A stretch of DNA of 48,958 nt. Source: Dehalococcoidia bacterium (lineage in GTDB: Bacteria > Chloroflexota > Dehalococcoidia > SM23-28-2 > WHTN01). The DNA lies in the NCBI GenBank assembly GCA_009377715.1, contig WHTN01000007.1, positions 1-48,958 of the forward strand, in the 5' to 3' direction. A program made the translations under genes and the position numbers. The notes below the pieces were generated by a model. It did not search any database and was not told the DNA's origin. It saw only the letters and a program-made list of their open reading frames with translations. This document shows, in pieces, positions 2,967-37,959 of the stretch (positions within the stretch are counted from its first letter, which is position 1; each line of letters opens with the position of its first letter).

Positions 2967-3932
2967 CTACTGGCCCAGGACGTAAGCGAAGATGAGAGGC
3001 GCGACGATCGTGGCGTCGGACTCGATGACGAAGCGAGGCGTATCGACCGACAGCTTACCCCAAGTGATCTTCTCGTTCGGCACGGCCCCGCTGTAAGATC
3101 CGTACGAGGTAGTGCTGTCGGAGATCTGGCAGAAGTATCCCCAGAGACGACACTCCTGGCGAAGGTCCTGCTGGATCAGCGGCACGACGCAGATGGGGAA
3201 GTCGCCAGCGATGCCACCTCCAATCTGGAAGAAGCCGATCGACTTATCGACGCTGTTAGCTTTATACCACTCCACCAGCGCGCCCATCTGCTCCAGGCCG
3301 GACTTCACGCAATTGTAATCGACGTCGCCTCGAATGGCGGCCGCGACGAACACGTTACCCAGCGTTGAGTCTTCCCAGCCGGGCGTGAACAGCGCTAACT
3401 TCCGTTCGCAAGCGGCGATCAGCCAGGAGTCCCGCGGGTCGATCTGGTGGAACTCTTCGAGCGCGCCGCTTTCGATCAGCTGGTACATGTACTCGTAGGG
3501 GAAATAGCGCTGGCCTTCGCTCGAAGCTTTACGCCACAGGGTTAGCATCTGTCGCTCAATGCGACGCATCGCTTCTTCCTCCGGGATACAGGTGTCCGTC
3601 ACACGGTTGAGCCCGGCGTTAAGCAGCGCCAGCTCCTCCGCATCGGAGAGATTGCGATAATTCGGGACGCGCTTGTAGTGGTCGTGGGCAACTAGGTTGA
3701 AGATGTCCTCTTCCAGATTGGCGCCCGTGCAGCATATACCGTGGATCTTCCCGTCTCGTATCATTTCGGCTAGCGAAAGGCCCAGTTCAGCCGTGCTCAT
3801 CGCGCCCGCGAGAGTCACGAACATCTTGCCGCGCTTTTCCAGATGGTCGACGTAGGCCTGAGCTGCATCGACTACCACGGCCGCGTTGAAGTGCCGGTAG
3901 TGCCGAGTGATGAAGTCTTTGACGGTCGGCAT
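2967..3932 (-). CDS. Deoxyhypusine synthase-like protein (possible homospermidine synthase)
   Basis: This protein of about 321 residues belongs to the deoxyhypusine synthase family. The C-terminal motif NEKITWGKLS contains the lysine (residue 293 from the chosen start) that in eukaryotic and archaeal enzymes forms the imine with the aminobutyl group taken from spermidine. FVTLAGAMSTAELG and ICCTGANLEEDIFN near the N-terminus are NAD-binding family motifs. Bacteria lack eIF5A, and characterised bacterial members transfer the aminobutyl group to small polyamines (homospermidine synthase activity), so that is the likely role. Two ATGs are in frame; AGGAGG at 3939-3944 is six bases from the second (3932) but touches the first (3938), so I chose 3932. 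The acetyltransferase and aquaporin follow on the same strand. Confidence 0.88.
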   Translation of the reverse strand: MPTVKDFITRHYRHFNAAVVVDAAQAYVDHLEKRGKMFVTLAGAMSTAELGLSLAEMIRDGKIHGICCTGANLEEDIFNLVAHDHYKRVPNYRNLSDAEELALLNAGLNRVTDTCIPEEEAMRRIERQMLTLWRKASSEGQRYFPYEYMYQLIESGALEEFHQIDPRDSWLIAACERKLALFTPGWEDSTLGNVFVAAAIRGDVDYNCVKSGLEQMGALVEWYKANSVDKSIGFFQIGGGIAGDFPICVVPLIQQDLRQECRLWGYFCQISDSTTSYGSYSGAVPNEKITWGKLSVDTPRFVIESDATIVAPLIFAYVLGQ

Positions 3933-4018
3933 ATGCATCCTCCTAAGCGGTTCTGGTGTGTGGTCACTTTAGCTGGAAATCGGCGCAAGGATCATAGCAT
4001 TAAGCGATAAGTTACGTA

Positions 4019-4104: not shown

Positions 4105-4132
4105 CCGCTCGCTCACCGCGAGCTTGATTCTC

Positions 4133-4182
4133 CGCCCACCCCGAGCCCTTCGGCAAGCTCAGGATGTACTTGTCGAGGGGCA
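4133..4182 (+). repeat. Dispersed repeat, family A (two units)
   Basis: The unit reads CACCCCGAGCCCTTCGGCAA followed by GCTCAGGATGTACTTGTCGA. The core CGAGC..TTCG.CAAGCTC is self-complementary and recurs at 8121, 13031, 13133, 31037, 31103 and 40436. It lies immediately after the uppP stop codon. Confidence 0.75.
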
Positions 4183-5162: not shown

Positions 5163-5837
5163 ATGTATCGGTTGAGCAGAGCCCAAGCTATCGTCATCAC
5201 CGCCTGGCTGATCGTATTAGCGGTGTTCTGCATCATGGCCGGCTTCGCCTTCATCGACGCCAACTTTCCGTTGGATCTGCGACTGACCTTGAGGATACAA
5301 GAGATCGATAACGCGGCTTTCGTGCGTGCCGTCGATTGGGCCGAAGATATGACCGACGGCCGTCTCCTTATCGCTGTCTACCTCACCGTCGCTGCAGCGC
5401 TATGGCTGTCATCGCACAGATTCGAAGTGCTTCTGCTTACGCTTACTGCGCTTGGACGCGTCGTTAACATGAGCGCCAAAGAGATCATCGAAAGGGCGCG
5501 TCCTACTGCAGAGTTTGTACTCGTCTCCGACCACGCCTCTGGTTTCGGTTTTCCTAGCGGTCATGCTCAAGGATCACTTCTCTTCTACGGCTTTCTCGTC
5601 TATCTCGCTGAAGTTACTATCGAATTCCGGCCTTTGCGCCGTCTAGTTCAAGCGATCTGCTTCGCTATCATCGTCCTCACCTGGATCGAACGGGTCTACG
5701 TCGGCGCCCACTGGCCCAGCGATGTCTTGGCGGGCGGCCTACTAGGAGCGGCTATCCTCATACCGATCGTGTGGCTGCACCAGCCTTACTTGTCGCGCCC
5801 TGATCGGAAAGGTGTCAGCGGCAACTTGACCCAATGA
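5163..5837 (+). CDS. PAP2-family membrane phosphatase
   Basis: The three phosphatidic-acid-phosphatase-2 motifs are present in order: KEIIERARP (KX6RP), FPSGHAQG (PSGH, with the histidine acid/base) and ERVYVGAHWPSD (the SRX5HX3D motif with Glu for Ser and the nucleophilic His). Five to six hydrophobic segments make it an integral membrane protein. The substrate is a lipid phosphate or pyrophosphate. With uppP directly opposite, a BcrC-like undecaprenyl-pyrophosphatase role is attractive, but phosphatidic acid or phosphatidylglycerophosphate is possible. The frame stays open to a TTG at 5112. I prefer the ATG at 5163 because it precedes the first basic and hydrophobic stretch, but neither start has a strong ribosome site. 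Confidence 0.87.
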   Translation: MYRLSRAQAIVITAWLIVLAVFCIMAGFAFIDANFPLDLRLTLRIQEIDNAAFVRAVDWAEDMTDGRLLIAVYLTVAAALWLSSHRFEVLLLTLTALGRVVNMSAKEIIERARPTAEFVLVSDHASGFGFPSGHAQGSLLFYGFLVYLAEVTIEFRPLRRLVQAICFAIIVLTWIERVYVGAHWPSDVLAGGLLGAAILIPIVWLHQPYLSRPDRKGVSGNLTQ

Positions 5838-5877: not shown

Positions 5878-6410
5878 ATGAGCGATGAGGAACTTGCCGC
5901 CCTCGAAGAAGAGTTAACCGCCGCCCGCACCGAGATCGACCGGCTTTCCGAGGCCGCCGCCGATGCTCACGCCCGCGCTTCGCAGATGGAAGCCACAACC
6001 GCCAACCTCAGGAAAGAGCTTGCGCAGTCCCAGAGCAATTTCGCCGTCAAAGACAGCGAGCTTACTTCCGCCAACGCTGACCTTGCATCCACACGTGCGG
6101 CAGAAGAATCGCTAAGAGGGGAGCTTGTCGAAGCGCAGGACCAGGCCAAATCTGCAGCCCTAAATACAAAGACGCCATTCTCGCCGCAGAGCCATCGCTC
6201 CCAGCCGATATGGTCTCCGGCGAAACGCTGACCGAGATAGAAGAGTCGCTCGCCCAAGCCCGTCAGACCGTAGCCCACGTACGCCAGCAGCTCGACGATC
6301 AAGCGCAAAACATCCGCGTTCCCACCGGCGCGCCACCTCGCCGCGCGCCCGACACTTCGAATCTCACGCCGATCGAGAAGATAAAGCTCGGCCTACAGCA
6401 GCATGACTAA
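5878..6410 (+). pseudogene. Coiled-coil protein, scaffold-like, broken by a -1 frameshift
   Basis: The ATG at 5878 has a strong ribosome site (GGAGGTG). The first part is a nearly continuous heptad-repeat coiled coil (EELAALEEELTAARTEIDRL onwards, about 95 residues). Near 6162 one base is missing. In the next frame the protein continues KYKDAILAAEPSLPADMVSG and runs to the stop at 6410, ending SNLTPIEKIKLGLQQHD. Position just upstream of the major capsid gene and the coiled-coil character fit a capsid scaffold or similar assembly protein, but this is inference from context. As written, the first frame stops at 6231 after a few out-of-frame residues, so the product is truncated. Confidence 0.7.
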
Positions 6411-6445
6411 CTCGTAGGGGCGGTCCGCGATCCGCCCCTATCCCT
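6411..6445. repeat. GTAGGGGCG-type palindrome
   Basis: GTAGGGGCGG is answered after seven bases by TCCGCCCCTA, giving a stable short hairpin directly after the scaffold-like gene. It shares its arms with the perfect palindrome at 29990-30017. Confidence 0.7.
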
Positions 6446-6576
6446 ATCGTGAGCGCGGCATATAGTTGTGCCATCTACCGCTTTCATTAATAGAACGTAT
6501 ATTCTAATCTAGACGCAGGACATAGCAAGAAACTAAATCGTACGGCGGATACAAGAAAGGAGGACGATTAAACAAC

Positions 6577-7469
6577 ATGGCCCTAACCCTTGCCGAAGCG
6601 GCCAAGCTCTCCAACGATACGCTCCTCGTAGGCGTCATTGAGACGGTCATCAAGGACTCGCCCGTCTTGCAATCGCTACCGTTCATCGAAGTACTCGGCA
6701 ACGGCCTCACCTACAACCGAGAGGCGGCCGCCCCTACCGCCGCCTTCTTCGACGTCGGCGACAGCTGGACGGAATCGACGCCCGCCCACCTTCGCCCAGA
6801 TCACAGCCCAGTTGAAGATCATGGGCGGCGATGCCGACATCGATAACTATTTGCTCTCTACCCGCTCTAACCTCCAGGATTTGGAAGCGGCAGTAGTCCA
6901 GCTCAAAGCGAAGGCTGTCCAGCAGTTGTTCGAGGACACCTTCATCAACGGCAACGCTACTACTAACCCTAAGTCCTACGACGGTGTCGACCGTCTCACC
7001 GACGCCGGTCAAACGATCAGTATGGGCACGAACGGCGCGACGCTAACGCTCGCCAAGCTTGATGAGTTGATCGACCTCATCAAAGGCGGCAAGCCCGACC
7101 TTCTTATCACGAGCAAGCGTACCCGGCGCACGCTAAACTCTCTGGCCCGCACCTCCGGCTCCTTCCTGGAGACCGACCGTAACGAGTTCGGCCAGATGGT
7201 GCAGTTCTACAACGGCATCCCAGTCGGCGTTTCCGACTACATCTCCGACGCTCAAACGGTCGGCACAAGCAATGACTGCTCCACCATCTACGCCATCCAA
7301 TTCGGGCGAAGGCGGCGTCGCCGGCCTCACCGCCCCGGGCGGCCTCCAGGTCGAACGCGTCGGCTCGCTAGAGACCAAGGATGCAACCCGCGTCCGCATC
7401 AAGTGGTACGCCAGTCTGGCACTCTTCAACGTCCTAAAACTCGCCAAGCTCATCGGCGTCCGGCCATAG
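6577..7469 (+). pseudogene. Phage major capsid protein, broken by two frameshifts
   Basis: A strong ribosome site (AAAGGAGG) precedes the ATG at 6577. Three frames joined end to end give a coherent capsid protein of about 295 residues. Part 1 ends FFDVGDSWTESTP. Part 2 runs from TFAQITAQLKIMGGDADIDN to YAIQFG. Part 3 runs EGGVAGLTAPGGLQVERVGS to the stop at 7469. The first break is a tandem duplication of GCCC at about 6780-6788 (+4); the second is one extra G in the run near 7305-7308 (+1). The pattern (an early LPFIEVLGNGLTYNRE stretch, a central helix-rich DLEAAVVQLKAKAVQQLFED, and a C-terminal GGLQVERVGSLETKDATRVRIKWY) is typical of HK97-fold-like phage capsid proteins. The gene as it stands cannot make a full subunit. 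Confidence 0.8.
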
Positions 7470-7483
7470 CGATTCGGATCTCT

Positions 7484-7533
7484 CTGCGGGTTAAAACCCG
7501 CAGCTTCATCTAGCTGCGGATTGAAATCCGCAG
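7484..7533. repeat. Pair of GCGGGTT/AACCCGC palindromes (family B)
   Basis: Two near-identical 20-base palindromes follow each other: CTGCGGGTTAAAACCCGCAG at 7484-7503 and CTGCGGATTGAAATCCGCAG at 7514-7533. The base changes in the second are compensatory, so the hairpin is preserved. A third copy is at 13179-13198 with a degenerate partner at 13211-13230. Here they fill the space between the broken capsid gene and the next gene. Confidence 0.85.
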
Positions 7534-7556
7534 AGGTTGCGAGGATAGAAACAGCA

Positions 7557-7955
7557 ATGGTAAACGTTCGCATCGATTCGCAAGGAGTGCCCAAAGGCCC
7601 TGTATACGAAGGGACGGCGCCGGTGCTGCATCGCAGCGCCATCTCCACACAGGACGCCGTCGATCCGACCACCGCCAGCCAGGGGCTGAACTACGCCGGC
7701 TACCGCAACCTACGGCTGGATATCGATACTACGGTGTCGGTTGGGCTGACGGCCCTCGAAGTGCAGCTGCTGGTCTGGAACGTTACCGCCAGCAAATACT
7801 TTCGCGGCGCTGAGCGCGAGTTCGGCGCCACCGAGCTTTCCGCCAACCCGAAGCCAGCGCTGGAGATAGAAGTGCGCGGAGCGATCGTCTTCCTGAAGAT
7901 CGTCTCGGCGACGGCCACCACCCTTTCAGTTTCCATTTACGCCAGTTTGAGTTAG
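7557..7955 (+). CDS. Phage structural protein of unknown role
   Basis: This 132-residue protein starts MVNVRIDSQGVPKGPVYEGT. It is beta-rich with alternating hydrophobic residues (LRLDIDTTVSVGLTALEVQLLVW, ALEIEVRGAIVFLKIVSATA). The frame extends upstream to a TTG at 7521 inside the palindromic repeat, so the ATG at 7557 after GAGGAT is the better start. It sits directly after the major capsid gene in a head-tail module. A small head-decoration or head-completion protein would fit the position, but I recognise no family. The gene is intact. Confidence 0.6.
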   Translation: MVNVRIDSQGVPKGPVYEGTAPVLHRSAISTQDAVDPTTASQGLNYAGYRNLRLDIDTTVSVGLTALEVQLLVWNVTASKYFRGAEREFGATELSANPKPALEIEVRGAIVFLKIVSATATTLSVSIYASLS

Positions 7956-7970
7956 GAGGCACGTTAAGCG

Positions 7971-8105
7971 ATGGTAAACCTTTCGTTCTACGCGATCTTA
8001 AGACCATCAGTATTCGTCCAACCAAAGGACATGAAGATGCGGCACTATTCACCGCTCGATCGGCTCACCATGAGCGGGCTGGACGTAGCGGTCCGCTCAT
8101 CCTGA
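7971..8105 (+). CDS. Small phage-module ORF, possibly truncated
   Basis: A 44-residue ORF beginning MVNLSFYAILRPSVFVQP follows AGGAGG at 7954-7959, with a somewhat long 11-base spacing. Its last codons (GTCCGCTCATCCTGA) lead straight into a dispersed family A repeat, so insertion of that repeat may have cut off a longer protein. It is on the same strand as, and evenly spaced between, two phage genes. No family is recognised. Confidence 0.45.
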   Translation: MVNLSFYAILRPSVFVQPKDMKMRHYSPLDRLTMSGLDVAVRSS

Positions 8106-8120
8106 TTAGCGGCGTGCAAT

Positions 8121-8169
8121 TCCGCTCACCCCGAGCCCTTCGACAAGCTCAGGACGTACTTTGTCGGGC
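8121..8169 (+). repeat. Dispersed repeat, family A
   Basis: The unit begins TCCGCTCACCCCGAGCCCTT and continues CGACAAGCTCAGGACGTACT, then TTGTCGG. It matches the copy at 4133-4182 closely and lies between two phage-module genes. Confidence 0.8.
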
Positions 8170-8205
8170 GATCATCTCGAACCCTAGATAAATGGAGGCG
8201 TTGGC

Positions 8206-9333
8206 TTGAGCAAGTTAAAGCTGTTAGGCGAAGGCGATAGCCCAACCGTCCACACGCACAGCGAGGCTGATGTCGCTGACGGCGCTGTCCTCGCCCGTAT
8301 CGCGGCTAGTGAAACTATAACCGGCGCTTGGGACTTTTCATCGGGAAAGATACGCCTGACCCAGGGCCTCGACGCCAACAAGCCCGGCAGCGGCAATAGC
8401 GAAGGGCACGTCTACTGGGCTACCGACAGCGATAAGCTCTACGTCTGGGACAGCACGGCATGGAAGGACGTCAGCTTCCGCGCCCACGCCGCCACACACG
8501 AGGCGAGTGGCAGCGATACAGTTACGGCCGCCCGCCTCAGAAGCGGCAACGATGCGGCCAAGCCCGGCTCCGGCAATGCGGAAGGCGACGTCTGGTGGGC
8601 GACCGACACCGACAGCCTCTACGTATGGGACGGCTCAGCCTGGAAAGCTATCGGAGCAAGCGATGGCAGTTCGGGCGGCCTCGTCAACCTGGCCCAGAAC
8701 GGCGGCTTCGAGGAGACGCATCTTCCGACAACCAATACGCCTTCCGGCTGGTCGCTGGAAGGCGCGCCTATCAGCGTCGCGCCTAGCACCGATGTTGCAG
8801 CGGACGCCGCCGGCGCCCGCTCTATCTTGGTCGACGGCGCCGCGACGAACCTGGACGTTAGCACTACTTCCACCTCTTGGGCAACAGTCTCCGGCACTTT
8901 TACCACGGACTCCGCTGGGACTGACGTTGTGCTAAAGGTGGTCGAATCTGTGCTCGGCACGGGCGTCCAGTTCGATGATGTGCTCGTGGTCGAAGGTGGC
9001 CCTGCTCCCTTCGCCCCTAATCCTTACGACTTCCTGTTGAAGGCGATCGATTCGCAAGACCTGACCACGAACCGCGATTTCGCCCGTCTTCGCCTGGAAA
9101 CGGGGCGTATCGAGATGACAGGAAACGGGACCGAAACACAAGCCGCGACGGCCACCTTCAGCCAGGCGTTCACTAAGTTCCTCGGCGCCGTGGCGACCTG
9201 CCAAGACTCGCGTTTCGTGACAGGAATCAACCTCTATGGCACCTCGAGCATAGAAATTCGCCTCCGGGATTACCAGGCAGCGACGTGGAGCAGCGTCGAA
9301 GAAGTATTCTGGCACGCCATAGGCGTGGACTAG
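8206..9333 (+). CDS. Phage tail fibre / receptor-binding-like protein
   Basis: This intact 375-residue protein starts at TTG (8206) after GGAGG. It contains two copies of a repeat of about 45 residues: LDANKPGSGNSEGHVYWATD...LYVWDSTAWKDV near residues 50-87, and NDAAKPGSGNAEGDVWWATD...LYVWDGSAWKAI near residues 108-148. Such units are common in phage fibres and adhesins. The next part, NLAQNGGFEETHLP to VQFDDVLVVEGG, resembles a carbohydrate-binding beta-sandwich domain (NGGFE opening, ATVSGTFTTDSAG centre, FDDV ending). The C-terminal third (NRDFARLRLETGRIEMTGNG onward) looks like a fibre tip. The likely role is contact with the host surface. Of the larger genes in the module it is one of the few that are undamaged. 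Confidence 0.72.
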   Translation: MSKLKLLGEGDSPTVHTHSEADVADGAVLARIAASETITGAWDFSSGKIRLTQGLDANKPGSGNSEGHVYWATDSDKLYVWDSTAWKDVSFRAHAATHEASGSDTVTAARLRSGNDAAKPGSGNAEGDVWWATDTDSLYVWDGSAWKAIGASDGSSGGLVNLAQNGGFEETHLPTTNTPSGWSLEGAPISVAPSTDVAADAAGARSILVDGAATNLDVSTTSTSWATVSGTFTTDSAGTDVVLKVVESVLGTGVQFDDVLVVEGGPAPFAPNPYDFLLKAIDSQDLTTNRDFARLRLETGRIEMTGNGTETQAATATFSQAFTKFLGAVATCQDSRFVTGINLYGTSSIEIRLRDYQAATWSSVEEVFWHAIGVD

Positions 9334-9350
9334 CCGTTTAGGAGGGCGAG

Positions 9351-9746
9351 ATGGCGATAACTTTCGTCGAGCAGATAAGCGGCCCGCCGGACGCACAAGG
9401 GCATACCCCCAAGATCTGGGCTACCGTCATGCCAGCCCTCAGCGGGTTGACGTTGTCTTTGCCGCAATGGACCTTCTTTTACGCCGGTAAACGGATCGAT
9501 CTCCCCACAACAACCATAGCGCTCATCGCCGACCCTGCTTACGCAACTAGCGTCCGACTGTATATAGTCCCAACTTCAGATGGAGTCGACAACTATCACT
9601 TGGACGAAACGGTCATGGATGGCATCCATCAGCCGGTAGTGCCCGAACGGTTCGCTGAAATAGGCCATATGCTGCTGCTTTGGGGCGCCGTTCCAGCAAG
9701 TGGCTCCGATCCAGAACTGTTATGTTTACGAAACGTGGAGGCGTAA
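9351..9746 (+). CDS. Phage-module protein of unknown role
   Basis: This intact 131-residue protein starts MAITFVEQISGPPDAQGHTP after a strong AGGAGGGCGAG ribosome site, 17 bases behind the fibre gene stop. It is probably a beta-structured accessory protein (LTLSLPQWTFFYAGKRIDLP, TTIALIADPAYATSVRLYIV). Position after the fibre gene suggests a fibre-associated or baseplate component; no family is recognised. Confidence 0.6.
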   Translation: MAITFVEQISGPPDAQGHTPKIWATVMPALSGLTLSLPQWTFFYAGKRIDLPTTTIALIADPAYATSVRLYIVPTSDGVDNYHLDETVMDGIHQPVVPERFAEIGHMLLLWGAVPASGSDPELLCLRNVEA

Positions 9747-9751
9747 TCTCT

Positions 9752-9913
9752 ATGAAAAAGACCAACGGGATATTAGACGGTCGAGAAGAGAAGCGTGCGC
9801 AGGCCAAACAGCGTTTGAGCGAAACCAAGGTCAGCGATCTGAACAGCGTGCCGCAGGTCCGCCAAGCGCTCGAGAAGGTGTTGGATTACCTGGACCTGCC
9901 ATACCAAACTTAG
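9752..9913 (+). CDS. Small helical phage-module protein
   Basis: A 53-residue, highly charged helical protein begins MKKTNGILDGREEKRAQAKQ and ends VLDYLDLPYQT. The ATG at 9752 follows GTGGAGG with seven to eight bases of spacing. It starts six bases after the stop of the preceding gene, which suggests translational coupling. No family is recognised. Confidence 0.6.
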   Translation: MKKTNGILDGREEKRAQAKQRLSETKVSDLNSVPQVRQALEKVLDYLDLPYQT

Positions 9914-9949
9914 TGTTCGAGATTCTGGACACTTCGTAAGGAGCGAGAG

Positions 9950-10567
9950 ATGAACCTCTCAGAGATGAGAAGCCGCGTCCGAAAAGACCTGCACGACGAA
10001 GACGCCGCGAACTACCGCTGGACGGATGCCGAACTCGATCGCCACATCGGCCGTGCCGTCCGCGAACTGAGCCTCGCCATACCTTTAGAAGCTAAGACGG
10101 CCCTTACCACGGGCCCGAACAGTAGAGAGCTATCCCTTACGGGCATAGCGGGCTTGATAGCAATCGAGGCTGTGGAGTACCCTACGGGCAAATACCCGCC
10201 CTCTTACGTTCAATTCTCGGTGTGGGCGGATACACTAGCCATGCTTGTGCAAGGCGCGCCTATCGGCGGCGATCCCGTCAACGTTTACTACGGCAAGATG
10301 CATACACTAGACGCCAACGGCTCCACCATACCGCCACAGCTAGAAGAGGTCGTAGCGACCGGAGCTGTGGCGTATGCGGCCCTAGAGTGGGCGAGCTTCG
10401 CAACGAATCGCGTAAATGTAGGCGGGCAGGACACCTGGCGAAATTACCTGACCTAGGGCCAGGAGAGGCTGGCCTCTTTTGCTCAAGCCCTCGCCAAGCA
10501 CAGCCGCCAAAACACCGTTCGGACGCACCGGCTTTACGCGCCGGCCGCGATCGACACGGAAGTGTAA
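9950..10567 (+). pseudogene. Head-tail connector-like phage protein with an in-frame amber stop
   Basis: The frame opens at ATG 9950 after AAGGAGCGAGAG and reads MNLSEMRSRVRKDLHDEDAA, a start typical of phage head-tail adaptor proteins, with helix-rich segments (RWTDAELDRHIGRAVRELSL). At 10454-10456 a TAG stop interrupts it, but the same frame continues without another stop for 36 residues (GQERLASFAQALAKHSRQNT onward) to TAA at 10565-10567. TAG here is one base from TGG, and tryptophan fits the context (NYLT-W-GQERL). The product would be cut from 205 to 168 residues. The shorter protein may still fold, so functional loss is not certain; the connector assignment rests on position and helical pattern. 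Confidence 0.62.
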
Positions 10568-10571
10568 GGCT

Positions 10572-12533
10572 TTGCGGACGTTACCCAGCGCCCTGCTGGC
10601 CGCTCAGCGCAGCCCAAGCGGTGCCCCGCACGTCAAGGTACAGATCCTCGACCGGATCGGCGGCGTCAGGCGGCTACGCTGGGAGCGGCTGTATACCGGC
10701 GCCGAACCGGACAACCATCACGCTCTAACTATGCCGGGCGATGGCTCGCTTATCGCGCTAGGGTGGCATCAGGCCAGCTGTATATCCAGCGAATGACTAC
10801 TCCCGGCCCCTCCAGCAACTTCGCCTCGTGGACGGCGCTCTCGTCTGTTGCTAACGCCAGCATCGCTGTCGCCAGCAGCGGAGCCAACGTGCTGCTCTTC
10901 TACGTCGACACTGATGGCGTAACGGTACGGCTGCGAGAGAGCAGTGACCACGGCACTACTTTCGCCGCCGCGACGACCATCGCTACTGCGGGCGCGAACG
11001 TCGAGTGGATGGCAGCCGCGCTCAAGAACGACGGCACGGCCCTCGTTATCTATTCGGCGGGAGCGGTTGTGCATACGGTAAAGCGCAACTCTGGCGTCTG
11101 GGGCAGCCCCGCGGCCTGGAGCAACAGTGTTGCCTCCATAACAGGGCTAGGCTGCGTTTACCAGAACGACTTCAACGTCGCGGTAGCCGGAACGGATGCT
11201 GTCGGCAACGCGAAGCTGTGGACGGCGATCTACGGAGATGGCTATTCGCAGGCGGTTGGGGCGTGGGCAACGCTCAGCGAACTAACGACCGCAAACGCCG
11301 GCTCGAACGTGAGCTTCCACGCGCCTTTCCTCGCCTATCCCGACGTTTTCCGTCTCTGTTTCGTCGAAAAGTACACCGGTACTGAAGCTTACTCACGGCC
11401 GTACTTCAGTTATTCGCCCGCTACAGCCGACTATGTGAACAACCTCTGGCGCGAGCCTTTCCCGCTTCTCGATCTGGCGAGCAGCTTCGGCTTATCGATA
11501 GCCTACGGTGGATCATATGCCTGGCTATCTTCGCCGAATGGCGTCTGGCGAGCGGCCCTCGATACGCCAGCGCTAGAAGTTACGGTGGATGTTACCGAGT
11601 TAGCCGCGGATGATAGGCCTGGCAGCGGGCGATTACGCTTAAGCCTTCATAACGGCGATGGCCGCTATCTTAACCTCGGGTTGGTGAGAACTCGGTCGTT
11701 CGCCTCGGGTCCGAAGTCCGAATAAGCCCGGCTACGCCACAAGTTCCGGCCCGCAAGTATCGGAAGGTCCGGCGTACTGGATCGAAAGCTACGAGCATAC
11801 GTCCGGCAACGGCGCTGCTAGTTTAACGATCATCTCCAACGACGGCTGGTCGCTTCTGGACAACTGGCGAGCCAGAAGGCAGTACGCCTGGGCCGAGGGC
11901 GAACGCAATATTTTCCAACTGCTGTCCTTCATCTTCGCAAGGGCGGGGCTCGAGTTTGCTAGCCTCAGCAGCAGCGCGACTATCGCTAACCTCTATCTCA
12001 GCTTTACCATCCACCCTGGCGAAAGAGGCGCCACTGCTGTCCAACGCTTATTAAGCATGGTCCCCGACGTCCTCTATTTTCGCGGCCACTTCGGGAATTT
12101 GAAAAACCCCTTAGCCTCGGAGGCAAGCTCGTACGCGGACAGCCATGCTATCACGCGCGGCAGTTATCGACTAGCTGCCCCAGAAGTGAACCGTGTTCAA
12201 GTGTTCGGCGATAGCCTGCTGGTTGAGGGCTTCGATTGGGACAGCATCACAGACGTATACGACCGCGTGACGCAGGTCGACGATCTGAATCTGGATACAG
12301 TAGCTAAGGGGCAAGAACGCTCATCGGCGATACTGCGTAAGGAGGAAATCAGGACGGTGTCCGGCGAGATAACGGTGACAGTCAACTGCGGCCAGGAACT
12401 CTATGACGTCATCGAAATTACAGACTCTGCTGCCGGCTTGAGCGCCGCGAAGGGGAGGGTCATGGGGATTTCGCTACGCTTCTCTCCGAAGAGTGGCTCA
12501 TACGAACAGCGTTTGTTGCTTGGCGCGCCTTGA
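10572..12533 (+). pseudogene. Large phage tail or baseplate protein broken by three -1 frameshifts
   Basis: A TTG at 10572 begins LRTLPSALLAAQRSPSGAPH. The protein is readable to 12533 if three single-base deletions are allowed. Near 10762 the frame changes from ...MPGDGSLI to ARVASGQLYIQRMTTP. Near 11685 it changes from GRYLNLG to GENSVVRLGSEVRISP. Near 11734 it changes to GYATSSGPQVSEGPAYWIES and then stays open to the stop. Restored length is about 650 residues. The first half has repeated beta-strand blocks like a propeller or fibre (SSVANASIAVASSGANVLLF; VASITGLGCVYQNDFNVAVA). The last part resembles baseplate or tail-hub proteins (VNRVQVFGDSLLVEGFDWDS). All three lesions have the same sign. 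Confidence 0.66.
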
Positions 12534-12542
12534 GATAAGAGG

Positions 12543-12752
12543 ATGATCAAACGAGGCGAACTGAAAAGCTTCAACTCAACGACCTATACGGCTTCGGTGC
12601 AGATGTCCGGCAGCCTGGCTGTCTGGCTCGATGGCATAGCGGTCGCGCGGAACATCGCCTCAGCCGAGATGGTGCCGGGCCGACGCTGCGCAGTCCTCTT
12701 CTTCTCGGATACCGACCCTAAAGACTCAGTGCTCGTCGCTGTCTATGTTTAG
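12543..12752 (+). CDS. Small phage-module protein, possibly OB-like
   Basis: A 69-residue protein begins MIKRGELKSFNSTTYTASVQ, ten bases after the tail gene stop. Its pattern (short beta strands, LAVWLDGIAVARNIASAEMVPGRR, then VLFFSDTDPKDSVLVAVY) resembles the small OB-type domains found in baseplate and spike proteins. The assignment is tentative; the gene itself is well placed and intact. Confidence 0.6.
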   Translation: MIKRGELKSFNSTTYTASVQMSGSLAVWLDGIAVARNIASAEMVPGRRCAVLFFSDTDPKDSVLVAVYV

Positions 12753-12762
12753 GGGGTAGAAT

Positions 12763-12927
12763 ATGCCACAGAAGCCCAGGCCCATTGAACCGCGCATACC
12801 GCCCGACTCACGTCCGCCGGAGGGCAACCCTCCGCCACAGTTCAGCGACGTGCGGGAGAACCCGGAACTAGCGTTCGAGAAAGTCATCCGCGGCGGCGGT
12901 GCAATACCGGCGGTCTGGGAGGAGTAA
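12763..12927 (+). CDS. Small proline-rich phage-module protein
   Basis: The ATG at 12763 follows AGGGGGTAGAAT with good spacing. It encodes 54 residues, beginning MPQKPRPIEPRIPPDSRPPE and ending GGGAIPAVWEE, with TAA at 12925-12927. It is rich in proline and probably extended. It is the last gene of the phage block; dispersed palindromes start 18 bases downstream. No family is recognised. Confidence 0.55.
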   Translation: MPQKPRPIEPRIPPDSRPPEGNPPPQFSDVRENPELAFEKVIRGGGAIPAVWEE

Positions 12928-13360: not shown

Positions 13361-14548
13361 ATGCGTTGGGTAACAATCGTCCGTTTCTCAGAGGTGGGCC
13401 TCAAGGGCAAAAACAGGGGCAACATGATCGGTCGTCTCGGCCAGAACATCCGTGACGCTCTAAGAGGTTTTGCGAAGGTTTCCCCTTACCATGACCGCGT
13501 TTTTGTTCCCCTGCCCGATATAGACGTCTGGCCCCTGGTATCGGAACGCCTGCGTTGGATCCCAGGCATCCGCAACTACTCGCTCGCCTTGCGCTCCCCG
13601 CCGGACTTGGAAGCCATTCACTCTTCCTTCTTGCAGCTCATCCCCGATGGAGGGTGGCAGACCTTCCGCATAGTCGCCCACCGAGCCGATAAAAGCTTCC
13701 CGCATACTTCGCAAGAAGTTGAAGAGCGGCTCGGGGCTATCGTCAAAGAGAAGACCGGCGGCCATGTCCGCCTATCTAAAGACGCAGACCTTAGCCTTTA
13801 CGTGGAGATACGGCCGGACGGCGCCTACTGCTACACCGAGCGTATCGATGGGCCGGGCGGCCTGCCGGTCGGTGTCAGCGGCCGTGTGGTCTCGCTTATA
13901 TCCGGCGGCATCGATTCGCCCGTCGCCTCGTACATGATGATGCGACGCGGCTGTCAGGTTAACTTCGTTCACTTCCACGCCTACCCGTACCTAGATTCCA
14001 GCACGATCGACAAGGCTAAAGTCCTCGTTCAGCGCCTGTCGCGCATCCAAGGGCCGAGCCGCCTGCATCTAGTGCCGCTGGGTGAGATCCAGCGACAGAT
14101 CGTGGTAGCAGCGCCCGAGCCGCTTCGAGTCGTCCTCTATCGCCGGTTCATGATGCGCATCGCGGAGGCCCTCGCGAATCGGGATGGCGCCTTGGCGCTC
14201 GTAACTGGCGATAGCCTAGGCCAAGTCGCATCGCAAACGCTTCGAAACCTTTCGGTCATCCAGGACGCGGCCACATTACCCATCCTGCGCCCCCTTATCG
14301 GCACGAACAAGGAAGACATCACGAGAGAGGCTGAAGTTCTGGGGACCTATCAAACGTCAATAGAGCCAGACCAGGACTGCTGCCAGCTATTCGTGCCACG
14401 CCATCCAGCTACCGGCGCCACATTGCAGCAAGTGCTCGCAGCCGAGGCAGCCCTTGATGTCCCGGCGCTCGTCGAGCAGGGGCTGGCCGGCGCGGAGACG
14501 CTCGCCTACCAATGGCCTGCCAGCCATAATGAAGTAATGGTGGGCTGA
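13361..14548 (+). CDS. thiI: tRNA 4-thiouridine synthase ThiI
   Basis: This 395-residue cytoplasmic enzyme adenylates U8 of tRNA and inserts sulfur. The N-terminal region (RFSEVGLKGKNRGNMIGRLG) is the ferredoxin-like domain, followed by the THUMP RNA-binding domain (about residues 60-165). The ATP-pyrophosphatase loop VVSLISGGIDSPVASYMMMR is unmistakable, with the partner motif VTGDSLGQVASQTLRNL later. The protein ends soon after CCQLFVPRHPATG, so the C-terminal rhodanese domain of the E. coli enzyme is absent, as in the shorter ThiI of many bacteria. Sulfur must then come directly from a cysteine desulfurase. The NUDIX-like gene starts 11 bases downstream. Confidence 0.95.
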   Translation: MRWVTIVRFSEVGLKGKNRGNMIGRLGQNIRDALRGFAKVSPYHDRVFVPLPDIDVWPLVSERLRWIPGIRNYSLALRSPPDLEAIHSSFLQLIPDGGWQTFRIVAHRADKSFPHTSQEVEERLGAIVKEKTGGHVRLSKDADLSLYVEIRPDGAYCYTERIDGPGGLPVGVSGRVVSLISGGIDSPVASYMMMRRGCQVNFVHFHAYPYLDSSTIDKAKVLVQRLSRIQGPSRLHLVPLGEIQRQIVVAAPEPLRVVLYRRFMMRIAEALANRDGALALVTGDSLGQVASQTLRNLSVIQDAATLPILRPLIGTNKEDITREAEVLGTYQTSIEPDQDCCQLFVPRHPATGATLQQVLAAEAALDVPALVEQGLAGAETLAYQWPASHNEVMVG

Positions 14549-14991: not shown

Positions 14992-15038
14992 ATCATACGT
15001 TCGACTTCAGCTTATAATTGCGCTTAGGAGACATGGGA

Positions 15039-16079
15039 TTGTCGGACAGGATCATATCTGCTAAGCCTCAAGCCGAGGACTCCGTTATTGAGGCTACCCT
15101 ACGTCCCAGCCGTATCGAAGAGTTCGTCGGGCAGGACAAAGTAAAGGAGAACCTCCGCATCGCCGTGCTCGCTGCCAAGCAGCGCGGCGAGACGCTTGAC
15201 CACACCCTGTTCTACGGCCCGCCGGGACTCGGCAAGACCACGCTGGCGCACATCATCGCCCACGAAATGGGCGGCAACTTGCGTATCTCCTCCGGGCCGG
15301 CCATCGAACGGCCGGGCGATCTGGCCGCTATAGTCACGAACTTACGCGAAGGCGACGTGCTGTTCATCGACGAGTGTCACCGGTTGCCACGTCCGGCCGA
15401 AGAGTTGATGTATCCAGTTATGGAGGACTTCTCCCTCGACATCATGATCGGCAAAGGACCGGGAGCGCGCAGCGTCCGCCTCGCCGTCCCTCATTTCACC
15501 TTAATAGGCGCCACCACCCGCTATGCGATGTTAAGCTCTCCCTTGAGAGACCGCTTCGGCTCGGTATACCGTCTCGACTTCTACGATGCAGGCGCGTTAG
15601 CCACGATTATCCGGCGTAACGCCAGCATTCTGCGCGTAGACATCGACCTCGAAGGGGCGCAAGAGATAGCCGGCCGCTCCCGGGGCACACCGCGCGTGGC
15701 TAACCGGCTGCTAAGGAGAGTCAGGGACTACGCGCAAGTGATGGGGGACGGGGTCATCACAGTGGAGGTGGCACGGGACGCTCTCTCAAGCCTGGCCGTG
15801 GATGAGCTGGGCCTTGACGAACTCGATCACAAGGTGCTGCGCACCATAGTGGAGAAGTTCGACGGCGGCCCTGTCGGCCTCGACACGATCGCCGCCAGCA
15901 TCGCCGAAGAGCCAGATACGATCATGGACGTCTACGAGCCGTTTTTAATGCAACTTGGCTTTTTGCAACGCACGCCCCGCGGCCGCATCGCTACGAGACG
16001 TGCCTATGAGCATCTAGACTTGCCGTACTCTGAGTCCTCCTCGCTGCAAACCACGCTTTGGGATGCTCCACAACAATAA
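15039..16079 (+). CDS. ruvB: Holliday junction branch-migration ATPase RuvB
   Basis: RuvB is the hexameric AAA+ motor that, with RuvA, moves Holliday junctions during recombination repair. Visible are [20 protein letters not shown], the Walker [21 protein letters not shown], a Walker B ending DECH (usually DEIH), sensor 1 [20 protein letters not shown] with the arginine finger, and the C-terminal winged helix ([34 protein letters not shown]). Length and order are standard. The frame stays open to 15018 and an ATG lies at 15033. The AGGAG at 15026-15030 is best spaced for the TTG at 15039, and translation from there gives [11 protein letters not shown], the usual RuvB start. ruvA and ruvC are not in this window. 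Confidence 0.95.
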
Positions 16080-37153: not shown

Positions 37154-37959
37154 ATGTCTCTCTTTTGGCCCAAATTCCCCCACGTAGCCGTTGTGGAAAT
37201 GTGGGGCCCTATAGGCGGTGGCTCACGTACCGCGGAATACGGCCGCCTCTTCCGCTCTTTAACCGAGGACGCTACGGTAAAGGCGGTAGTGCTTGATATC
37301 GACTCGCCGGGAGGCTCGGCCACCGCCTCGGACTACCTGTATAAAGCCCTGGTACGCCTGGCCAAGAAGAAGCCGCTGATCGCTTTCGTGCGCGGCACGG
37401 CAGCTTCGGGCGGTTATCTGCTTGTGTGTGCGGCCACCCGTGTCATAGCGATCCCGAGCGCGCTTGTCGGGTCTATAGGTGTAATCGCGATCCGCCCCGT
37501 CCTACAAGACCTCTTAGACCGCATGGGCATCCAAGTCTTCGTACGCAAAACGGGGCCTTTCAAGGACATGTGGGCCTTCTACAGAAAACCGACCGACGAA
37601 GAGCAAGGGAAGATCCAGAAGCTTCTGGACGAGTTCCATGAACTATTCGTAAAAACGGTCGCCGAAGCAAGAGGGCTAGACCTCGCCAAGGTCAAAGCTA
37701 CGCCACCGGCGAAATATTTACGGCAAATCAAGCGCTGGAGATGGACCTACTGGACGACCTAGGCGATCTAGATAACGCCATCGACAAGGCGCTGGAACTC
37801 GGCAACGTCCCGCGAAGGGTCCAGTACACCCGGCCGAAGAGACCTCTAATCGATCGGCTGGCCTTCGGTGTTAGCGGTGCTCTGGTCAAGGCCATTACTC
37901 TCGAGGTAGAACGTCACCTCGCACCCGAGGTCCAATATCGCTTTAGCGGCAAAAAGTAA
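37154..37959 (+). pseudogene. S49-family signal peptide peptidase (SppA-like) with a frameshift
   Basis: The first frame encodes most of a short SppA-type protease: VKAVVLDIDSPGGSATASDY (oxyanion region), GTAASGGYLLVCAATRVIAI with the nucleophilic serine, SALVGSIGVIAIRPVLQDLL and KTGPFKDMWAFYRKPTDEEQ with the catalytic lysine. At about 37699 one base is missing: VKA should be followed by YATGEIFTANQALEMDLLDD, which is found in the next frame and runs to the stop at 37959 (VQYRFSGKK). Uncorrected, translation ends at 37762 with about 16 foreign residues. All catalytic residues precede the break, so partial activity is conceivable. No signal anchor is visible at the N-terminus. Confidence 0.8.

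Follow-up and report, generated by a model that had tools for sequence, protein, structure and literature searches.

We analyzed a 48,958-nt stretch of DNA (hereafter the window) from contig WHTN01000007.1 of a Dehalococcoidia bacterium, whose genome we code G000, and found that it carries a phage-type virion module that is broken in several of its genes. All coordinates are window positions unless another locus is named. The module comprises ten phage-type genes on the plus strand between a PAP2-type phosphatase gene (5163-5837) and thiI (13361-14548), and ruvB (15033-16079, +), the host gene that anchors synteny, lies on the thiI side. An earlier sequence-only reading had described eleven phage-like genes in head-to-tail order between a membrane phosphatase gene and thiI; the genes, their order, coordinates and position proved correct and the phage-like content stood, but the number falls to ten because two large late open reading frames (ORFs) are one hub gene.

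The first gene (5878-6410, +) encodes a scaffold-like coiled-coil protein and has one frameshift near 6170; relatives have intact orthologues of 155-178 aa upstream of the major capsid protein (MCP) gene, to which both frame pieces align, and the scaffold of an intact relative matches PHROG head scaffolding (9e-5). The MCP gene (6577-7469, +), which encodes an HK97-fold protein of SU10/phrog_212 type, has frameshifts near 6784 and 7305, matches phrog_212 (6.2e-36 and 1e-14) and Pfam SU10_MCP, and has an intact orthologue of 295 aa in relatives at 68-82% identity. It is followed by an intact gene for a conserved 132-aa protein, p132 (7557-7955, +), which is 68% identical to its orthologue in genome G024 and had no match in PHROG, Pfam or PDB. 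Next come an intact gene for a fibre or carbohydrate-binding protein (8206-9333, +; PHROG tail fiber, 2e-6, with weak matches to a Gp53-like C-terminus and CBM_4_9), an intact 131-aa ORF with no match in family searches (9351-9746, +), and an intact gene call for a small protein preceding the adaptor (9722-9913, +), at a position where relatives also have small genes. The SU10-type head-tail adaptor gene (9950-10546, +) has a premature stop at 10454-10456, beyond which homology runs on to residue 199 of 211; it matches Pfam SU10_adaptor (PF24175, 1.7e-10). The tail hub gene, whose product has a propeller-like N-terminal half (10572-12533, +), changes frame near 10754, 11680 and 11727, and its four frame pieces align to a single intact 650-aa orthologue. 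An intact gene for a 69-aa OB-fold spike protein (12543-12752, +) and a 54-aa Pro-rich ORF (12763-12927, +), similar to a 52-aa ORF at the same place in locus L110, complete the module. In these profile searches of the module proteins, the MCP and adaptor gave family matches that are secure and not due to chance.

Alignment to the intact orthologues of G024 located seven lesions in four genes, namely one frameshift in the scaffold, two in the MCP, one premature stop in the adaptor and three frame changes in the hub. This agrees with the at least seven inactivating lesions in four genes that the sequence-only reading had counted, and the reading frames it had called intact, those of the fibre-like gene and the small proteins, including p132 and the spike, are open. 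Its description of a module without packaging genes holds for the window but not for the genome, where another contig (G000:C103) encodes an intact portal, a four-cysteine helix-turn-helix (Cys4-HTH) protein and a large terminase that lacks ~165 internal residues.

Among 25 genomes of the same order, we found the MCP in 17, the portal in 21, the terminase in 20 and the hub in 19, and each of the four was present in 7/7 high-quality genomes (at least 90% complete, low contamination), one of which is the source genome with its broken copy. The MCP of these relatives is usually intact and in single copy, and the genes around it run scaffold, MCP, 132-aa protein, fibre, adaptor, hub and spike; terminase, HTH and portal genes lie nearby but with host genes in between, among them phosphotriesterase and HD-domain genes, or are on other contigs. 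Four families (f1, f3, f4 and f5) have the module close to ruvB, at a distance of 0.1-4.2 kb, and a ruvB homologue was found within this range in loci L113, L115, L117, L120, L124 and L125. Family f4 has its spike domain fused to a fibre and positioned after the MCP.

An MCP profile search across the class (393 Dehalococcoidia genomes at least 85% complete) found the gene in 167, nearly always once, and in a sample of the phylum it was found in 60/399 genomes, some from other classes. Named contigs with the MCP belong to Dehalococcoidia and unclassified Chloroflexota metagenome-assembled genomes and to Tepidiforma, among them T. flava, whose genome is closed (NZ_CP115149.1); NCBI places Tepidiforma in a class of its own, Tepidiformia, while our genome collection assigns it to the window's class. 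In one genus (f13 g58), probably Dehalogenimonas, six closed genomes hold a compact cluster of HTH, portal, scaffold, MCP, adaptor, small membrane protein, hub and spike genes, so that the carriers would presumably include Dehalogenimonas-like organohalide respirers. The closed genome G032, from the sister genus and in our assumption Dehalococcoides-like, keeps the HTH, terminase, small terminase and spike genes, but the MCP is gone. In its relic (L316, G032:C1:363500-383400), the terminase genes are open and the start of the portal is fused to the end of the hub. These observations fit repeated loss of the module, in the source genome and in the Dehalococcoides-like genome with its relic.

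In four Tepidiforma genomes, the hub, portal and MCP genes are each single, intact and far apart; the module spans 187, 199 and 228 kb in the three that are closed. Every dispersed gene sits among ordinary genes that are conserved between species. This layout is incompatible with a prophage or satellite functional as one mobile unit, whereas host genes can have it. Terminase, portal and integrase genes nearby had been named by the sequence-only reading as signs of an ordinary prophage; across 14 genomes, no module gene had a tyrosine recombinase (PF00589) closer than 42 kb, with distances to the nearest one ranging up to 1 Mb, and no integrase or mobilisation gene accompanied the element within 42 kb. 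No replication genes were recognised in the gene contexts examined.

We then compared the module trees with that of DnaK by counting shared splits against 500 label shuffles. The trees had 21/32 (MCP), 17/27 (portal), 13/18 (hub) and 15/18 (large terminase, TerL) splits in common with DnaK, compared to at most 2-4 for the shuffled trees, and distance correlations with DnaK were 0.63-0.76, which 0/5000 permutations reached. Pairwise ratios of nonsynonymous to synonymous substitution rates (dN/dS) were 0.01-0.19 for the MCP, 0.04-0.30 for the portal, 0.14-0.41 for the hub and, in all but two Tepidiforma pairs, 0.09-0.22 for the terminase, and the module proteins are under purifying selection, with dN/dS mostly below 0.3. 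In the MCP tree, one clade (support 0.992) unites 164 proteins encoded in Dehalococcoidia genomes or on IMG/VR contigs, whereas the MCPs of cultured phages and a pair of prophage-like copies in G108 branch outside it. The sister of this clade is a divergent contiguous set in G019, probably a phage. This set (L121, G019:C12) consists of terminase, portal, scaffold, MCP, adaptor and hub genes with small phage-like genes upstream, and it may be a free phage relative of the domesticated module.

Several protein features bear on what the particle could do. In five large terminase sequences compared, the Walker A motif (RQxGKN), DEAQ and the nuclease Asp residues are invariant. An AlphaFold model of a hub orthologue (predicted local distance difference test score, pLDDT, 94) matches Mu gp44, T4 gp27, VgrG and the hubs of extracellular contractile injection systems (eCIS) with its C-terminal half, while its N-terminal half is beta-rich and weakly matches a propeller-type lectin. 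The model of a spike orthologue (pLDDT 93) has an OB fold whose best PDB match is the membrane-piercing protein P2 gpV (E 2e-3), and non-phage OB folds score about as well. PDB sequence searches gave nothing for the MCP and only weak sialidase-like matches for the hub, and no sheath or tube was recognised in the compact clusters or gene contexts examined.

Together, these findings indicate that the module is very probably a host trait that arose by domestication rather than a prophage. The sequence-only reading had allowed for a domesticated system of particles that this strain has lost, should orthologues in relatives be intact at the same locus, and this gains support from the intact orthologues, the ruvB-adjacent site in four families, the host-congruent trees and the purifying selection. 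We place at about two in three the probability that its role is gene transfer, that is, that it specifies a DNA-packaging particle of the gene-transfer-agent (GTA) type that is old in Dehalococcoidia. Judged by the membership criteria for GTAs (viriforms) in PMC9662315, the virion genes of the module (TerL, portal, scaffold, MCP, adaptor, hub and spike) come from tailed phages and the module is vertically transmitted (DnaK congruence, ruvB synteny, one copy per genome), and its order-wide presence at the same ruvB site in four families differs from the sporadic occurrence and variable insertion site of a temperate prophage. The evidence is gene-based (content, intactness, single copy, synteny, trees, selection, dispersal and decay), and the particles are inferred from the genes.

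In intact relatives, we envisage a small particle with an HK97-fold capsid assembled on a scaffold, a portal and an SU10-type adaptor, beyond which a Mu gp44/T4 gp27-like hub would bear the OB-fold spike. Since the large terminase retains its motor and nuclease residues, the particle most likely packages DNA. Since the module is vertically inherited, lacks replication and integration functions and can be spread over ~200 kb, the packaged DNA is hardly the element's own genome; the Tepidiforma span of 187-228 kb would far exceed the capacity assumed for a small capsid. Host DNA would be packaged instead and the particle freed by a lysis step, giving a putative sequence of particle formation, host-DNA packaging and delivery to kin.

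Several observations weigh against this proposal, in which particles, packaged DNA and transfer are predictions from the genes. A tail tube, a tape measure, a head protease and a lysis gene all went unidentified, so that the predicted particle may lack parts. The MCP was not found in 58% of the class genomes, some of which are incomplete, and terminase dN/dS reaches 0.64-0.70 in two Tepidiforma pairs. Related modules also occur in other Chloroflexota classes, but their MCPs fail to group cleanly with the Dehalococcoidia clade, so that these modules may be separate domestications.

The alternative that survives best is a domesticated particle with a job other than gene transfer, such as a DNA-filled or empty capsid that injects into or kills relatives via hub, spike and fibre, a decoy, or a storage compartment. 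The hub and spike resemble those of contractile injection systems and VgrG of the type VI secretion system (T6SS), the variable fibre and the propeller suggest targeting, and no cargo is known for the particle. However, the terminase motor and nuclease residues are invariant, the portal, scaffold and adaptor are kept although a DNA-free killer would not need them, and compact modules show no sheath or tube genes, and we consider such a job unlikely but not negligible.

The lesions could also be assembly errors in a strain whose module is intact. The host genes sppA (37154-37959) and pyrD (L303:5944-6884) are each broken by one frameshift, so that some background of lesions exists in the assembly or the genome, and since that background is not zero, any single lesion could still be an assembly error; the G000 MCP pieces also align at 69-80% to the intact orthologue. 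However, the module has seven lesions in ~4.0 kb of coding sequence, whereas two were found in ~51 kb of coding sequence elsewhere in the window and on a second contig of the same genome, a clustering with a binomial P of ~3e-7, and the terminase on the other contig is missing ~165 residues, making wholesale assembly error improbable. The window is best read as carrying a copy of an old domesticated virion module that was inactivated recently and has decayed in this genome.

More doubtful still is a phage or satellite family confined to this lineage, co-speciating with its hosts and returning to a single integration site. In IMG/VR, 213 contigs encode the MCP, and were hence called viral by the pipeline, and tree congruence could in principle reflect co-speciation, but the retained contigs are mostly 4-8 kb fragments carrying the same module, no replication genes of its own were recognised, and the genes can be far apart and split among host genes. 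In one IMG/VR contig (L084:2012-9923), ~8 kb of other sequence interrupts the MCP gene. Least probable is the decaying prophage core of the sequence-only reading, a temperate phage that inserted here and lost most genes: it would explain the phage-type genes, the lesions and a window with no replication or integration genes left, and true prophage-like sets with related MCPs lie close in the tree (L121, L361 and L362), but intact single-copy orthologues at one chromosomal place in four families, host-congruent trees, dispersed yet intact Tepidiforma genes and the lack of a nearby integrase effectively rule it out. A tailocin, also raised by that reading, or another contractile injection system was rejected, as capsid, scaffold, portal and terminase are all in the conserved set and no sheath or tube was recognised in the gene contexts examined. 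An encapsulin was rejected as well: encapsulins (PMC8346489) share a host-kept HK97-fold shell protein but are defined by dedicated enzyme cargo loading, whereas the module conserves packaging machinery alongside the shell, retaining terminase, portal, scaffold, adaptor and hub.

Comparison with known systems sets the proposed GTA-type particle apart. The nearest cultured-phage MCPs, those of the siphoviruses Xanthomonas phage Xp15 and Streptomyces phage Rowa, are ~41% identical, and the portal is only ~24% similar to that of any phage in the collection; both phages share the terminase-portal-MCP-adaptor order but have additional tail terminator, tail tube and tape measure genes. The fold of the 650-aa hub and OB spike is that of phage, eCIS and T6SS hub-spikes (Mu gp44, T4 gp27-gp5, P2 gpV and VgrG), yet here they adjoin a capsid-portal-adaptor set in which neither tube nor sheath is recognisable, and the N-terminal half of the hub is propeller-like. 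RcGTA has a siphovirus-like tail with a tape measure and known host regulators, none of which we saw in the Chloroflexota module, which also differs in phylum, in its SU10-type adaptor and in its phrog_212 capsid. RcGTA and the other alphaproteobacterial type I GTAs (Rhodogtaviriformidae; PMC9662315) are alike in their caudovirus-derived virion genes, vertical inheritance, genes at several scattered host loci, and selection on terminase and capsid. Brachyspira VSH-1/BhGTA and Bartonella BaGTA (PMC9662315) are likewise independently domesticated tailed phages kept by a host lineage; relative to all of these, the Chloroflexota module is known from genes alone.

Formal classification covers just three GTA groups, from alphaproteobacteria and spirochaetes (PMC9662315), and our searches of an open-access paper library, with many subscription papers and bioRxiv outside its coverage, turned up no description of a GTA for Chloroflexota or Dehalococcoidia. 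Our analysis suggests a previously undescribed GTA-like DNA-packaging particle across a whole bacterial class. Evenly balanced, in our judgment, is the further proposal of a class-wide, independently domesticated Chloroflexota GTA with a minimal particle, distinct from the three recognised groups and among the oldest. Such a particle would dispense with tail tube, sheath and tape measure, its contractile-type hub and spike being joined to an SU10-type capsid and adaptor, and in some lineages its genes would have become separate host genes dispersed through the chromosome. If a DNA-packaging particle is kept across Dehalococcoidia, it would account for some of the gene exchange within this major lineage, most of which is uncultured, and many short IMG/VR "viral" contigs would be host genes. 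Tepidiforma flava, which is cultured and has a closed genome with an intact module, makes the idea directly testable.

Some smaller observations concern genes near the module in other loci and in the window. A Cys4 protein (C-x5-C-x2-C-x4-C) with an HTH lies beside the portal in 34/38 cases; at L303:11162-11503 (-), this small protein, whose HTH is sigma-like, adjoins the portal, and it is a possible regulator of particle production, either redox- or zinc-dependent. Three small genes lie upstream of the terminase at L303:13059-14073 (-) and also in L125 and L299. One of them, of 74 aa, encodes a coiled coil with a hydrophobic end in L125; a holin is conceivable, but this reading found no family support and was set aside. 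ComEC was present in 18/19 genomes and is uninformative on transfer, since most control genomes carry it too. In the window, a minus-strand gene (2967-3938) resembles deoxyhypusine synthase by its sequence, and a dispersed intergenic repeat of ~45 bp (CCCGAGCCCTTCGACAAGCTCAGG type) occurs at 8120-8165, at 4131-4175 and at 22 other places in the genome, with copies 82-95% alike.

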